This document shows positions 458-31,828 of a DNA stretch of 39,339 nucleotides, one piece after another (within the stretch, counting starts at the first letter, position 1; every line of letters begins with the position of its first letter). Location of the stretch: the NCBI GenBank assembly GCA_027012955.1, contig JALUYL010000075.1, positions 1-39,339 on the forward strand, written 5' to 3'. Under the pieces are notes generated by a model that was not told the DNA's origin, ran no database searches, and saw only the letters and a program-made list of their open reading frames with translations. Made by a program: the position numbers and the translations under genes. The stretch comes from Sulfurovum sp. Lineage in GTDB: Bacteria > Campylobacterota > Campylobacteria > Campylobacterales > Sulfurovaceae.

Positions 458-810
458 GTAAATTTTATAAAGTCAAATGGACTTCAAATGCGAAAGAAGA
501 CCTTTTAAATATTGTTGATTATATCAAAAAAGATAATTTAAGTGCTGCAAGAAAAGTTTATGGACAAATAAAAGAAAAAGCACAGTCTAGCAATTTTTTT
601 CCTTTAAGAGGTAGAGTAATTCCTGAACTTCAAAAAGAAGGTATAACTATTTATAGAGAACTGATTGCACAACCATGGAGAGTTATGTACAAAGTTGAAA
701 ATGATACTGTTTATATTATGGCTATTTTTGATTCAAGACAAAATGTAGAAGAGTTGTTATTACAAAAACTATTAAGAGGTCATATGCTAACAAAACAGAG
801 TAACCAATAA
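454..810 (+). CDS. RelE/ParE-family toxin
   Basis: A 118-aa protein of the RelE/ParE superfamily: KVKWTSNAKEDLLNIVDYIKK at the N-terminus, a central PLRGRVIPEL segment, then YRELIAQPWRVMYKVENDTVYIMAIFDSRQN, the usual core strands ending in a DSRQ-type tail. Family members are either mRNA interferases (RelE) or gyrase poisons (ParE); the sequence does not decide which. The gene overlaps the upstream antitoxin by 4 bp. The last eight codons and the stop run into the left core site of the downstream attC-like site (785-852), so the C-terminus is partly encoded by the recombination site. That may be a cassette-formation product, since the domain proper ends near residue 107. Confidence 0.88.
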   Translation: MSKFYKVKWTSNAKEDLLNIVDYIKKDNLSAARKVYGQIKEKAQSSNFFPLRGRVIPELQKEGITIYRELIAQPWRVMYKVENDTVYIMAIFDSRQNVEELLLQKLLRGHMLTKQSNQ

Positions 811-852
811 ATTACCTAGCGGCAATTTATCGGCTATCTTTGACCGTTAGCA
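785..852 (+). other. integron attC-like site 1
   Basis: Outer boxes TGCTAAC (785-791) and GTTAGCA (846-852) are exact inverse complements, as expected for R'' and R' of an integron recombination site. Inside lies an imperfect stem: CCAATAAATT (804-813) pairs with AATTTATCGG (824-833) with one mismatch. Length is 68 bp. The site closes the TA cassette, and the next gene begins 16 bp after it. Confidence 0.75.
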
Positions 853-1827: not shown

Positions 1828-1896
1828 TGCTAACAAATCATTGGAGAGAAATATTTGACCCTGCGGCTCAAATATTTCTCAACTTAGTCGTTGCAC
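1828..1896 (+). other. integron attC-like site 2
   Basis: TGCTAAC (1828-1834) and GTTGCAC (1890-1896) form the outer boxes. Between them is a perfect 13-bp stem, GAGAAATATTTGA (1846-1858) with TCAAATATTTCTC (1868-1880), and a 9-nt loop. It lies immediately after the stop codon of the HrgA-like gene, as attC sites do. The right box is degenerate relative to GTTRRRY. Confidence 0.72.
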
Positions 1897-1922
1897 GCAC
1901 CCGCGGAGCGGGAGCGTGCAAC
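1890..1922 (+). repeat. perfect GC-rich hairpin at start of non-coding cassette
   Basis: GTTGCACGC (1890-1898) pairs perfectly with GCGTGCAAC (1914-1922), and inside it CCCGC (1900-1904) pairs with GCGGG (1908-1912) around a GGA loop, with a single A-A mismatch between the two stems. It overlaps the right box of attC-like site 2 and the left box of site 3, so the two sites share one hairpin. It is far more GC-rich than its surroundings. Confidence 0.8.
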
Positions 1923-2078
1923 GGGCGCGCTGATCACTGAACGTGACCACTGCCATTCGTTGGTCTCCGCTACGCTACATCCAACAAATGCCAGGATACA
2001 CACATCAAGTCTGATCCCAGAAAACCCTTCGGGATTTTCTGATATCATACTGAATGGTGATCAGCGCGCCCGTTAGCA
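1916..2078 (+). other. large attC-like structured element 3
   Basis: A perfect 18-bp inverted repeat (AAC plus 15 bp at 1920-1937, matched at 2057-2074) encloses 119 nt. Those hold two further hairpins: CATTCGTTGG/CCAACAAATG (1954-1963 and 1981-1990, one mismatch) and AGAAAA-CCC-TTC-GGG-A-TTTTCT (2019-2040). The right box is GTTAGCA (2072-2078), identical to site 1; the left is GTGCAAC. Together with 1891-1915 this makes a cassette of about 182 bp with no convincing gene. Small open frames across it lack a ribosome site. It is either an attC with a long terminal structure or a cassette encoding a structured RNA. Confidence 0.65.
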
Positions 2079-4158: not shown

Positions 4159-4187
4159 TTTACATTTCATATGAATTATGTTATACT
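4159..4187 (+). promoter_or_regulatory. sigma70-type promoter of VapBC-like operon
   Basis: TTTACA (4159-4164), a 17-bp spacer and TATACT (4182-4187) precede the antitoxin start at 4223, which has an AAGGAG Shine-Dalgarno sequence at 4211-4216. Autorepression here by the TA complex would be typical of the family. Confidence 0.55.
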
Positions 4188-4222
4188 TTTTTACTTTACA
4201 AATAAAAATAAAGGAGTTTTAT

Positions 4223-4429
4223 ATGCATACTATCAAAATTGATATAAGTGATAATATTTACGATAATGTAATGTTTTTTCTTAATAATTTACCAAAAAAA
4301 GATATTAAACTTCATACTCAAAAAAAACTTACTGAAGAGAAACTCACAGACTTTTTTCACTCTTCCCCGCTACAAGATATTACACTAGAAAGAAACAAAG
4401 ATATTTATCAAGATAGAGTCAATTTTTGA
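4223..4429 (+). CDS. small antitoxin of VapBC-like pair
   Basis: A 68-aa protein starting at ATG 4223, which has AAGGAG seven bases upstream; an in-frame ATG at 4178 lies in the promoter and is rejected. The N-terminal HTIKIDISDNIYDNVMFFLN resembles short strand-helix antitoxins. The C-terminus (DFFHSSPLQDITLERNKD) has the SP-L pattern often seen in VapB tails that enter the PIN-domain active site. Its stop overlaps the toxin start by 4 bp. Assignment as antitoxin rests on size, order and coupling rather than on a clear domain. Confidence 0.75.
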   Translation: MHTIKIDISDNIYDNVMFFLNNLPKKDIKLHTQKKLTEEKLTDFFHSSPLQDITLERNKDIYQDRVNF

Positions 4430-4848
4430 AATATATCTTAGATACAAATATTATCTCTGAACTTATCAAGACAAATCCAAATCAAAAAGTATTACATTTT
4501 CTCAATACAATTCAAGAAAAAGATATTTATCTCTCATCTATTACTATTGGAGAAATATACTTTGGTATCCAAAAACTCCCTTATGGTAAAAAGCAAACAA
4601 AGCTTCTCTCTTGGGTTGAAGAGCAACTACTTCCAAGGTTTCACAATAAAGTGATAGTTATTGATACTGATGTAATGTTACAGTGGGCGATACTGACAAA
4701 CACATTAAAAACAAAAGGTACACCTTTGCCTATAATGGATTCTCTTATCGGTGCAACTTGTTTAGCTAAGAAATTTACACTTATCACGCGTAATGAAAAA
4801 GATTTTAAAAACATAAATATACAAATTATTAATCCATTTAATTCGTAA
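4426..4848 (+). CDS. vapC: VapC-type PIN-domain ribonuclease toxin
   Basis: A 140-aa PIN-domain protein read from TTG 4426, overlapping the antitoxin stop. Acidic metal-binding residues are in place: D6 in ILDTNIISEL, E43 in SITIGEIYFGI, D105 in MDSLIGATC, and the TRNEKDF motif at 121-127. VapC toxins cleave tRNAs or rRNA, and which target applies here is not visible. Length is normal. The gene converges with the DUF445 gene, 16 bp away. Confidence 0.92.
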   Translation: MKYILDTNIISELIKTNPNQKVLHFLNTIQEKDIYLSSITIGEIYFGIQKLPYGKKQTKLLSWVEEQLLPRFHNKVIVIDTDVMLQWAILTNTLKTKGTPLPIMDSLIGATCLAKKFTLITRNEKDFKNINIQIINPFNS

Positions 4849-27430: not shown

Positions 27431-28063
27431 TTTTTGTAGCACAACCATATTTTTACCATTGTCGGTGATGTATTGACAGTTAAAGTATTTGCATAAAACG
27501 CTAAAAGTTTTAGCTCTAAAAAAGACGATATGCGTAGTATCGGCAGGGTACCACCACTTTTCAAACGAGGCTTGTTCATTAGAGTGAAACTCTGTTTGGA
27601 TGGCAAGGAATCCACCACAGTTTAACTTATCTAACAACTGTTCAAAAACCTCTCTTGGCTGATGCAGATGCTCAAAGACTTCCGTGGAGACTATAAGGTC
27701 ATACCTTTTCTTTTCATCTAAAGTATGAGGATGATAGATAGGGTCATAATAGTCACACGCTATACCCTCTGCCTCTAATAGTTTCGCTAACAAAGAAGTA
27801 CGCCCACAGCCAAAATCTAACGCTGTTTTAACGTTCTCTACATGAGGCAATACAAAATCCAAAAAGCGTTGAAAATACGCTCTATAGCCTTCATCTTCTT
27901 CATTGTTTTCATGGAGATTATAGCGCTCTTTTTGTGTTTCTAGGTCTTGATAGCATGTTGGGGATTTAAAGATGTATTCACATGACGTGCAGTGATAGTA
28001 GGTGACATCTCTCTTCTCATGCTTAAATAACACTGTGCTTTGATTGCATATATGACACTTCAT
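27422..28063 (-). CDS. zinc-ribbon SAM-dependent methyltransferase
   Basis: A 213-aa protein. A zinc ribbon (CHICNQ and CTSC, residues ~3-30) precedes a class I methyltransferase with ALDFGCGRTSLLAKLLE (motif I), YDLIVSTEVFEHLHQPREVFEQLL and GGFLAIQTEF. This form is common for methyltransferases acting on sugars, lipids or RNA; substrate is not visible. Its ATG overlaps the stop of the RhuM gene by 4 bp, so it is translated in the same transcript as a defence or phage-derived gene, an unusual pairing. Confidence 0.82.
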   Translation of the reverse strand: MKCHICNQSTVLFKHEKRDVTYYHCTSCEYIFKSPTCYQDLETQKERYNLHENNEEDEGYRAYFQRFLDFVLPHVENVKTALDFGCGRTSLLAKLLEAEGIACDYYDPIYHPHTLDEKKRYDLIVSTEVFEHLHQPREVFEQLLDKLNCGGFLAIQTEFHSNEQASFEKWWYPADTTHIVFFRAKTFSVLCKYFNCQYITDNGKNMVVLQKLT

Positions 28064-29052
28064 TTATTTTTCAAACTTTTCATGTCATTTTCAAGTTCTA
28101 GTAAATTATCTCTATGGTTTTTTTCTTTTTGCACTTCTTTATACTCCATATAAACGAGGTCTGCTTTAGCTACTGCCATGTCATGACTTATCTGACCAGC
28201 ATGCGTTAAAAGCTCTCTTCCATTTAGACTTATGATGGCATCGAGTCTTTGTATCCAGTCTTTCATGTACATAGGTGTTTTCTGTTCTGCCATCGTCTCT
28301 GCAAAGGCTAGATACTGCTCCACGAGTAGTCCTAGAAGTTTTATCTCTTTTTCGTTCAGGTAATTTTTAGCGATGCTCACATCTTTTTTACTTATGTTTT
28401 TCCCTTCTTTACCCAGTGACTGCATACCCAACAGCGGAAGTGTTACATCTACCCTACTATGCACGAGTTCAGCAGCAGTCGCAGATGAGATAGCCCAAAG
28501 CAGTTTGTTTTGAACAGTCTTAAAAAATGCTATAGTCTTTTCATCTTTAGCGTCATAGTCTATGCTTGTGGTGTAGATATCTTTTATCTTCTGGTAGAAA
28601 AAGCGTTCTGAGATGCGTATGTCTCGTATGCGTGCTTGTAGTTCATCAAAGTATGTCATAGAGTTTCCACTTTTGAACCTGTCATCATTTAGAGCAAAGC
28701 CTTTGATGATGTACTCTCTTAGTACATTCGTAGCCCAGATGCGAAAGTGCGTAGCCTGTTTGGAGTTTACCCTGTACCCTACTGCTATGACCATGTCGAG
28801 ATTGTAGTATTCAATGTTTCTTTTTACTTCACGAGAGCCTTCTTTTTGAACCTGTGCAATTTTTGCACAAGTTGAACTTGCTAGTTCTTCATCCTCCAAT
28901 ATATTTTTTATATGCTTAGTAATTACACTTCTTTCTGAACCAAATAATTCAGCTATCTGCTTTTGATTAAGCCATAATGTTTCATCCTTTAGAAGTACAT
29001 CTACTTTTACTTGGTTGTTTTCGTTTTTGTAGAGGAGGAAGGGGGTTTGCAT
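28060..29052 (-). CDS. RhuM-family protein
   Basis: A 330-aa RhuM homologue. The N-terminal part (WLNQKQIAELFGSERSVITKHIKNI; REVKRNIEYYNLDMVIAVGYRVNSKQATHFRIWATNVLREYI) is the diagnostic RhuM region with an HTH-like segment. The rest is helical and ends with KNHRDNLLELENDMKSLKNK. RhuM was first seen in Salmonella pathogenicity island 3 and occurs widely with restriction or phage genes; its molecular role is unknown. It is 70 bp downstream of the MmeI-type gene in the same direction. Confidence 0.9.
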   Translation of the reverse strand: MQTPFLLYKNENNQVKVDVLLKDETLWLNQKQIAELFGSERSVITKHIKNILEDEELASSTCAKIAQVQKEGSREVKRNIEYYNLDMVIAVGYRVNSKQATHFRIWATNVLREYIIKGFALNDDRFKSGNSMTYFDELQARIRDIRISERFFYQKIKDIYTTSIDYDAKDEKTIAFFKTVQNKLLWAISSATAAELVHSRVDVTLPLLGMQSLGKEGKNISKKDVSIAKNYLNEKEIKLLGLLVEQYLAFAETMAEQKTPMYMKDWIQRLDAIISLNGRELLTHAGQISHDMAVAKADLVYMEYKEVQKEKNHRDNLLELENDMKSLKNK

Positions 29053-29122: not shown

Positions 29123-31828
29123 TCATACTTTCACATCTGCCACATATTCTTCATACAACTCAAACAAAAACTCTATGCGTTCTTTGTCGCTTTTAAATGT
29201 CCGTTTGGTGTAGCATTTGTCTACTGCACGGTCTAGCTCTTGGTGGGCTTTTTTGAGTTTGGGTGGCATGGCTAGTGGGTCGTAGAGGTCAGCTAATGAG
29301 CTGTCTGTAAACTCTGCTCTGATGTCCAGTATGTTTTGGGCTTTTTCTTCTACTGTAGTTTTGTTTTTATCACTTACATCTTTTGGGAATGGGTAATTAT
29401 TGTACACCAAATCTTTGGAGTATCTGTAGTCACTTTTTAGCCGTCCACAAGTATATTTTACCCAAGTCATGTGCATAAGTGATGTTAATTGTCCGAAGAG
29501 GAATAAGTCTCCATTTGGGATTGCTTGACAGGTATCTCCTACAATAAAATCTTTTATAAAAAACCCCATAGGAATATATTCTCTATTTGAGGATGTAGTT
29601 CTAGGCACTAAAATAAAATCACTATTCGGCTGTGTTACTTGTCTAAATAGTGTATGATATGGATATTCTCTTGTAGATTTTGCTTTACTTTTTAATCGAA
29701 ATTGTTTAACTTCTTCAACCCTTTTAAGTATCTCTGGAGACATTTTTAAATCATTTGGATTTGCATCTACAAGCCAAATTACCCATCTATTAATACTTTT
29801 TAAAAACTCTCTTCCACTTAAAAATGGTTTTATAAATTTTTTTGCATTTGGGTCTTTATCAATTAATATATCTTTCTCTGTGTCATCCAAAAGAAAGAAA
29901 CCTCCATCTGTTGGCTTACTTCCATATTTCATTGCAGAAACATTGCATAAAGGTTTACTTCTATTAGTCACAACAATATCATCTGCTTCCACTAAATATG
30001 GATTTATATTTCTTACATTTCTTTCATGGGCTTCTTTCTTTATATCTTCATATTCATATATCTTTTTATTATCTGTATCATAGTTTGCAAATCCAACTAT
30101 AACTACATGTACAGCTGCATTTGACTTGGCTTCATTACTCCAGTTAAATGTTTGATGTGCAAAGTGTATTTTTATTTTATACTTTTCTAACAACTTACTC
30201 CATAATATCCCAACTTGCTCTCCTTGAGCTATAGAATTTGTAGAAACAAATGCGACTTTTATTTTGGTATCTTGTATATATGCCGATGCTTTGTAAAACC
30301 AAGCAGAAACATAATCCATAACACCTGATGCTTTAATATCATACAAAATAGTATTTAGTTCTTCTTTTTGTTTTGTTGTTTGCAAATGATGCCCTATAAA
30401 TGGAGGATTACCCAAGATATAAGAGAGTCTATCATTAGCGACTACTTCTTTCCAATCAACTTCCAAAGAGTTCGCATTGACAATATTGGCAGACTTTTTT
30501 AGAGGTAGCCTAGCGTAGTACTGTCCGAAGTGTTCGCTTATACGCATGTTCATTTGGTGGTCTATGAGCCACATGGCGACTTGTGCTATCTGTGCAGGGA
30601 ATTCGTCTACTTCTATGCCGTAAAACTGGTCTACATCTACCCACACGATGGTAGAGACATCCAGTACACTAGCACTGTGCAATACTTTGAGTATCTCTAA
30701 CTCTAACAAACGTAACTCACGATACGCGATGATGAGAAAGTTCCCAGACCCACAAGCAGGGTCTAAAAAGTGCAAGGTCGCTAACTCTTTTTGAAACTCT
30801 TGGAGTTTCTTTTTGTTCTTTTTTAGTTTCTCAAATCTAGCATGAAGTTCATCTAAAAACAATGGCTTGATGACTTTAAGAATGTTAGCTTCACTCGTAT
30901 AGTGAGCTCCCAAGTTTCGTCTAGCCTTTTTGTCCATGATAGACTGAAAAAGTGAACCAAATATGGCAGGGCTTATCTTGCTCCAGTCAAGGTAGCAACA
31001 CTCTATGAGTACCCCTCTCATCTTAGTGTCAAAGGCAGGTATGGGCAAAAACTCTTCAAAAAGCTTACCATTAGTGTAGATAAAGTCGTTTAGACTTTCA
31101 TCTCTTGTGCTGAGTCTTTTGTCTTCAGGCGTGTTAAGCACTTGAAAAAGCTCTGTAAGTTTGGCACCCACATCTGAGCCGTCTTCGTTAGTCTTTGCTT
31201 CAAGATACTCCACAAAAGAATTCTTTTCAAATATAGCGGTATCCTCGGCAAACATCAAGAAGAGTAAGCGTACCAAGAAAAGCTCCAAAGGGTGTCCGTC
31301 ATAGCCAGTCACTTTAAGCTCATCATGTAGTTTACCCAGTAGTTCTGCTGCTTTGATGTTAACAGGGTCTTCTTCGCGTACCTTATGTGTGGTGTACCCT
31401 GCCATGAAGCCAAAAAGTTTGATATACTTAGAAAATTCTTTTATATGAAACTGTGTATGACCACCCTCCTCTAAGTCATACAGTCTAAATATCTCAAAAT
31501 CAGATACCAAGATGTACTTAGGAAGTTCACGGTCTTTGATGCCAGGGAAGTAGTCTTTTGCTTGTTGAAATGCTTTGTCTAAGTCCTTACCCCTAGACTT
31601 ATGCTCTACGAGTATGACACCTTTCCAAAGTAAGTCGATGCTACCCTTTTTGTCTCCGAGTTTCGCCACAGGCTTTTCAAAAGTAGCCACACGTCTACGA
31701 GAGATACCAAAGACATCGAAAAAGTCATTCCAAAAAGACTGAGACTCTGCATTCTCCCGACTTTCATCTTCCCACTCTTTTGTAAAAGTTATTGCTCTGC
31801 TTCTTATCTCGTTCCAACTTAGTGCCAT
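29123..31828 (-). CDS. MmeI-type (type IIL) restriction-modification enzyme
   Basis: A 901-aa single polypeptide with nuclease, methyltransferase and target-recognition parts, close to MmeI (919 aa). The N-terminal nuclease has D65-x9-E75-H-K77 (IDLLWKGVILVEHKSRG), the same D-x9-E-x-K spacing as MmeI. An alpha-helical linker follows to ~residue 330. The gamma-class N6-adenine methyltransferase shows motif I (LHFLDPACGSGNFLIIAY) and motif IV (YILGNPPFIG). Target recognition is C-terminal (~600-830: VSAMKYGSKPTDGGFFLL and RWVIWLVDANPNDLK), as in this family. It would protect and cut DNA in one protein. A 9-bp inverted repeat lies upstream at 31848-31883. Confidence 0.9.
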   Translation of the reverse strand: MALSWNEIRSRAITFTKEWEDESRENAESQSFWNDFFDVFGISRRRVATFEKPVAKLGDKKGSIDLLWKGVILVEHKSRGKDLDKAFQQAKDYFPGIKDRELPKYILVSDFEIFRLYDLEEGGHTQFHIKEFSKYIKLFGFMAGYTTHKVREEDPVNIKAAELLGKLHDELKVTGYDGHPLELFLVRLLFLMFAEDTAIFEKNSFVEYLEAKTNEDGSDVGAKLTELFQVLNTPEDKRLSTRDESLNDFIYTNGKLFEEFLPIPAFDTKMRGVLIECCYLDWSKISPAIFGSLFQSIMDKKARRNLGAHYTSEANILKVIKPLFLDELHARFEKLKKNKKKLQEFQKELATLHFLDPACGSGNFLIIAYRELRLLELEILKVLHSASVLDVSTIVWVDVDQFYGIEVDEFPAQIAQVAMWLIDHQMNMRISEHFGQYYARLPLKKSANIVNANSLEVDWKEVVANDRLSYILGNPPFIGHHLQTTKQKEELNTILYDIKASGVMDYVSAWFYKASAYIQDTKIKVAFVSTNSIAQGEQVGILWSKLLEKYKIKIHFAHQTFNWSNEAKSNAAVHVVIVGFANYDTDNKKIYEYEDIKKEAHERNVRNINPYLVEADDIVVTNRSKPLCNVSAMKYGSKPTDGGFFLLDDTEKDILIDKDPNAKKFIKPFLSGREFLKSINRWVIWLVDANPNDLKMSPEILKRVEEVKQFRLKSKAKSTREYPYHTLFRQVTQPNSDFILVPRTTSSNREYIPMGFFIKDFIVGDTCQAIPNGDLFLFGQLTSLMHMTWVKYTCGRLKSDYRYSKDLVYNNYPFPKDVSDKNKTTVEEKAQNILDIRAEFTDSSLADLYDPLAMPPKLKKAHQELDRAVDKCYTKRTFKSDKERIEFLFELYEEYVADVKV

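Follow-up and report, generated by a model that had tools for sequence, protein, structure and literature searches.

The window (the whole stretch of 39,339 nt that was analysed) is part of a Sulfurovum MAG with an assembly of 1.7 Mb and a completeness of 76%. Its left end is formed by consecutive integron cassettes, and a short cassette, herein called type A, sits inside this array. The genes and recombination sites of the array are the following:

185-810, + strand: genes of cassette 1, a PhdYeFM antitoxin (185-457) and a ParE/RelE-type toxin (454-810)
787-849, - strand: attC of the toxin-antitoxin cassette (cassette 1), of the ordinary kind; 24.2 bits with the local attC model
869-1822, + strand: gene of cassette 2, 317 aa, without family match
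1830-1894, - strand: ordinary attC of cassette 2 (47.4 bits with the local attC model); the ORF-less cassette supplies the rest of its R' box
1891-2072, + strand: ORF-less integron cassette (type A), with the attC call at 1830-1894 alongside, G|TT limits common to 27 aligned copies, and recurrence in the genus and the order
2095-2514, + strand: gene of cassette 4, which immediately follows the ORF-less cassette; 139 aa with FxLYD domain
2518-2582, - strand: attC of cassette 4, of the ordinary kind; 51.1 bits with the local attC model

Beyond the cassette array, a small ORF and a PIN-domain protein (4178-4848) likely form another toxin-antitoxin pair, and a Type IIG restriction-methyltransferase homologue (29123-31828) adjoins the PADLOC candidate defence protein PDC-S05 (28060-29052).

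The first-pass annotation had described a cassette of about 182 bp with a GC content far above its surroundings and without a supported gene, and all three descriptions hold. The crossovers G1890|T1891 and G2072|T2073 delimit exactly 182 bp, and the GC content is 0.55 (1891-2070) compared with 0.31 and 0.35 in the two flanks. The first bases of a cassette are normally complementary to its own R'' box. This holds for the first six nucleotides in all of the 27 full-length type A copies that were aligned (from Sulfurovum and other Campylobacterales genera), and likewise, by sequence, for the neighbouring cassettes of the window. In type A, however, the own R'' box (GTGCAAC, 1916-1922) lies just 25 nt past the cassette start; these 25 nt and a 157-nt attC-like site (1916-2072; about 163 nt including R') make up the whole cassette, and hence there is no room for a gene. 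The two ORFs present, 61 aa (+) and 54 aa (-), are not conserved—no frame is open in more than eight of the 27 copies, whose lengths of 185-195 nt do not keep a reading frame. A gene, which is usual for cassettes and not obligatory, is therefore absent. Rfam yields no match at the gathering score and, within the cassette, none at a relaxed threshold either. A sequence scan of 1890-2078 returned no sigma-70-like promoter and no terminator.

Fold and strand preference

The fold of the window copy is built from the following elements:

1890-1922: 5' hairpin H0 (1890-1898/1914-1922 and 1900-1904/1908-1912, 3-nt loop), with compensatory changes in 4 of 14 pairs
1916-1922, + strand: R''-like box GTGCAAC, the complement of G|TTGCAC at the start of the same cassette
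1923-1937: 5' arm of the outer stem H1, GGGCGCGCTGATCAC, partner 2057-2071; paired throughout, even at the place of the central spacer that ordinary attCs leave unpaired
1942-2002: head hairpin H2 (1942-1945/1999-2002 and 1950-1963/1981-1994), with wobbles almost solely of the bottom-strand kind
1982-1996, + strand: embedded CAACAA-N-CAGGA motif, which resembles the R''-L'' arm of ordinary attCs; in 27 of 27 copies
2004-2055: head hairpin H3 (2004-2027/2032-2055), with both-side changes in 8 of 21 pairs
2057-2071: 3' arm of the outer stem H1, GTGATCAGCGCGCCC, followed by G|TT at 2072-2074

As inverted repeats, these elements largely correspond to what had been noticed at first pass. The 18-bp outer stem is confirmed, its two arms (1920-1937/2057-2074) being 100% complementary, and so are the two inner hairpins, one as the repeat 2003-2027/2032-2056 and the other (1950-1963/1981-1994) as seen in the folds. 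The 33-nt hairpin at the 5' end exists but is not perfect as had been stated: its 16-nt arms (1889-1904/1908-1923, loop of 3 nt) are 94% complementary, with the mismatch A1899/A1913. Both strands fold far beyond shuffled sequences, none of which equalled either, and the bottom strand does so better than the top (folding-energy z-scores of -9.7 and -8.3, respectively).

The pairing is conserved in homologous cassettes. Among 14 diverse copies, 21 of 68 pairs are changed on both sides; this count exceeds 500 of 500 shuffles, and sliding the partners abolishes the signal. The fold is thus real and conserved. It is also better kept on one strand, with standard pairs in 95.5% of cells when read as the bottom strand versus 84.6% as the top. 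The non-Watson–Crick cells of the 27 copies comprise 195 top-strand A.C (which equal bottom-strand G.T) versus 18 top-strand G.T, a wobble count that is partly built in, since the pair list derives from how the window copy folds as a bottom strand. Limited to mainly Watson–Crick pairs, the 27 copies give 75 A.C versus 18 G.T, and the 13 copies that were not used for the pair list give only 27 versus 13 under the same restriction. Independently of any pair list, the bottom strand folds better in all 27 copies, by a mean of -10.2 kcal/mol, compared with 53 of 65 ordinary attCs and a mean of -1.3 kcal/mol. Mutation bias is unlikely as the sole cause of the imbalance between A.C and G.T. The pairing constraint hence lies on the bottom strand, the strand of attC that is recombined by IntI (PMC2727003, PMC8946536); type A shares with attCs a bottom strand that both folds and is constrained. 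For the window copy, the bottom strand of the excised circle is predicted to have 76% of its bases paired, at -63.4 kcal/mol.

Two further features can be appreciated in the sequence. The 5' arm of H1 also fits a local hairpin, GATCAC-TGAAC-GTGATC (1933-1950 in the window, and in copies), with a conserved TGAAC loop; its counterpart in the sister family type B, described below, is GCGGGCTGAACACCCGC. As a possible alternative fold, this hairpin would compete with the outer stem. In addition, a second GTTG...CAAC hairpin precedes the embedded CAACAA...CAGGA arm in the 27 copies, so that the element looks as though it enclosed a smaller cassette. From this hairpin and the attC-like arm comes the idea that type A may be a fusion of two cassettes.

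Comparison with ordinary attC sites

Thirty-three ordinary attCs from the arrays served to build a local attC model; it is sequence-only because RNAalifold found no common pair among ordinary attCs. This model finds three attCs within the initial 6 kb of the window (787-849, 1830-1894, and 2518-2582), each on the bottom strand. Inside 1895-2075, this sequence-only model returns just a 1.3-bit fragment and no attC call, so that the simple reading of the cassette as one ordinary attC does not apply. The R'' and R' ends are attC-like, being of the AAC/GTT kind (GTGCAAC and GTT, with ATC/GAT in a few copies).

The differences lie in the stem. Of the six positions beside the R box, 5.8 are paired on average in type A (all six in 24 of 27 copies), compared with a mean of 1.2 and a maximum of three in 65 ordinary attCs; an unpaired central spacer is therefore missing. 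Extrahelical bases are missing as well: in the window copy, no bulge interrupts the 15 bp of the outer stem, whereas 55 of the 65 ordinary attCs have the additional G of GGAG. At the site VCR2/1, deletion of the extrahelical bases together with pairing of the spacer lowers bottom-strand integration 8.5x10^4-fold (PMC2727003). By the published rules, type A should hence be a very poor IntI substrate.

The same mixture appears in a comparison with large branched attCs such as the VCR of Vibrio cholerae. Shared are the bottom-strand fold, the branched terminal structure, the complementarity of R'' and R', and the G|TT crossover. Unlike these sites, type A has an outer stem of full pairing without central spacer or extrahelical G, spans about 163 nt, contains a conserved head sequence, and comes in a cassette with no gene. 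The suggestion of an attC with an extended terminal structure thus survives in part, for an oversized attC-like site of about 163 nt is present, but it is not an ordinary one.

Membership among integron cassettes is well supported. Membership among canonical attCs is not supported, as two defining features that were tested fail. As far as junctions and strand show, the site would work in an attC-like manner, and its distribution, judged from sequence comparison, shows that type A moves or once moved. Three explanations may account for movement despite the rules. The IntI of Campylobacterales may obey other rules; the missing marks may be replaced by the branched head together with the large difference in stability; or another, more canonical fold may be open to the cassette through its embedded CAACAA...CAGGA arm, which is present in 27 of 27 copies.

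The type A family and its position behind attI

A DNA search of 78 genomes of the genus gave about ten near full-length copies besides that of the window, with 88-95% identity, plus truncated and partial ones; the match boundaries of the genus-wide copies fall at query positions 4-190. In one genome (G090), four copies do not differ from one another over 186 nt, but the attC upstream and the cassette downstream are different for each of them; this pattern, as read from the sequences, is one of recent and precise mobility. Other families of the order contain diverged copies (72-77% identity), and of the order's 399 genomes that were scanned with a bottom-strand covariance model, 25 from nine genera contain a match. 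Relatives of type A are found in many sulfur-oxidising bacteria. Nearly all full-length copies join attI or attC exactly at G|TT. Two queries of plasmid and phage records gave no real match, and a scan of IMG/VR with two conserved motifs gave none. Campylobacterota integrons were reported earlier (PMC8618304), and that of Sulfurovum NBC37-1 is found only as a table entry in rows that are hard to read (PMC10295459). A literature search covering open-licence papers found no description of elements like type A.

Type B is a sister family that differs in sequence, head lengths, and stem lengths but shares with type A the place behind attI and the architecture—a GTTG...CAAC hairpin, a long outer stem, and a branched head. 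Type B is matched over its full length by the model of type A, with 59.7 bits (for example, L024:15374-15530). Gene-less structured cassettes of type B behind attI were seen at this locus and at L098, L086, L006, L019, and L110; A/B hybrids occur at L096 and L049, and A-B tandems at L186, L188, and L176. One type B "copy" (L186) with the opposite strand preference was left out, as it appears to be a reverse-orientation match. Parts of type A are also found in chimeric attCs of gene cassettes (L041:167-313, L044:4931-5076, and L054:4547-4599), which combine an ordinary left arm (TAACAA...) with type A from the TGATCAC region onward.

The attI of the genus ends in GTTCC.T.AATAAATAG|TT; 28 of the 78 genomes contain exact sites, 43 in total, and the reversed pattern has none. 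This consensus lies upstream of cassettes, and IntI adjoins many of the sites, including one in a genome that has type A at attI (G014); an integrase of the lineage is thus located beside the attI that is used. At 14 of 42 readable exact attI sites, the next element is type A, type B, or a remnant. Within arrays, such elements follow about 14 of about 220 ordinary attCs, the enrichment being approximate as both figures were counted by hand.

Interpretation and alternatives

The best explanation, with a probability of about 0.72, is that the locus holds a gene-less cassette that consists of little beyond its own recombination site and that IntI moves in the form of a folded bottom strand, being one copy of a mobile repeated family of Campylobacterales. 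It is carried by the G|TT junctions, the copies at several sites in one genome, the lack of a conserved ORF, the compensated branched fold, and the bottom-strand constraint. Once excised, the circle of 182 nt would fold almost wholly into a dumbbell with a 24-bp stem, a small 5' hairpin loop at one end, and a two-hairpin head at the other; herein, H0 would continue the attC stem. IntI would then put the folded bottom strand into attI or attC at G|TT. Since the outer stem contains neither spacer nor extrahelical base, the bottom strand would most likely be marked for IntI by the stability difference and the branched head. Most likely the cassette would persist as a cargo-free satellite of the integrase, with a possible benefit when it is next to attI. 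The broader statement—that selfish cargo-free cassettes are widespread, with a site that breaks the canonical attC design yet moves, its bottom strand being chosen by stability and branched head—is a tentative one, with somewhat less than even chances.

The position behind attI also gives rise to a different reading, in which the element would be a device kept in the first position, where it would adjust expression from Pc, insulate the array, or offer new cassettes a preferred site of insertion. The enrichment right after attI and the occurrence of two sequence families with one architecture in the same position, at times in tandem, speak for this. A cargo-free cassette that often re-inserts would reach attI too, however, and copies also lie deep in arrays (as in the window and G090), so that the device is unlikely. 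Function as an RNA was the other proposal of the first-pass annotation. A leader or sRNA from the top strand, made from Pc or by read-through from upstream cassettes, would agree with the far-beyond-chance folding of that strand and with the frequent location of the family directly behind attI, inside the Pc transcript; gene-less cassettes can encode an sRNA, as with sRNA-Xcc1, which is cited in PMC6557892 and PMC12444791. Yet G.U pairs, the usual sign of RNA folding, account for just 18 cells whereas 195 are A.C mismatches, and an Rfam match is lacking. As the pairing is kept on the bottom strand, the one used by IntI, a top-strand transcript from Pc is a poor explanation and a structured RNA of this kind very improbable. 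The sRNA-Xcc1 cassette of Xanthomonas is likewise an integron cassette with a noncoding product or fold, but type A differs from it by the missing Rfam match, by its bottom-strand fold, and by standing alone without symE. For an antisense RNA from the bottom strand, acting for instance on attI, Pc, or upstream cassettes, the G.T bias fits as well as for folded DNA. Such an RNA is nevertheless distinctly improbable: 1890-2078 offers it neither promoter nor terminator, the signal reaches the R'/R'' arms, where attC pairing already demands pairing, and ordinary attCs lean in the same direction (53 of 65).

Most of the gene-less Vibrio cassettes that were tested show promoter activity (PMC11014356), and type A has in common with the gene-less cassettes of Vibrio and Treponema that it is a gene-free cassette in an integron array. 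The latter, where tested, act as promoters and are larger (size controls of 450-650 bp, PMC11014356), whereas type A is below the published cassettes in size, consists almost entirely of its recombination site, and belongs to a repeated family found across the order. The scan found no promoter-like site within it, and nearly all of its bases are tied up in the conserved fold; a promoter cassette is hence highly improbable. Inverted repeats, the absence of a gene, and the multiple copies also recall REP/MITE-like elements, which would be moved by a transposase and lie near integrons by chance. With attI/attC G|TT junctions in nearly all full-length copies and first bases that match the own R'' in 27 of 27, as in cassettes, this is scarcely credible.

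Besides the built-in part of the wobble count, two points count against movement of the folded bottom strand by IntI. With the double change of VCR2/1 as a guide, efficient use by IntI would be unexpected under the canonical rules. Moreover, the only intI of the own genome (L012:603-1515, on another contig, C32) is broken by a stop into two overlapping frames, and is either a decayed gene or an assembly error.

Gene-less cassettes are usually explained as promoters or as regulatory RNAs. Type A suggests a third kind—a recombination site alone, conserved for its single-strand fold and carried across a bacterial order. If IntI moves type A, the unpaired spacer and the extrahelical bases, both regarded as requirements for the activity of attCs and for the choice of strand, would be replaceable by another design.

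Regarding the integrase, the IntI of the own genome is about 91-96% identical to that of G014. Many attI sites with a Pc-like upstream stretch have no recognisable intI, with several per genome (L049:4929, L050:4672, L051:3017, L035:4850, L082:1519 on contig C80 of the own genome, and others). These sites are solo Pc-attI modules, some of which are located at the head of cassette arrays.
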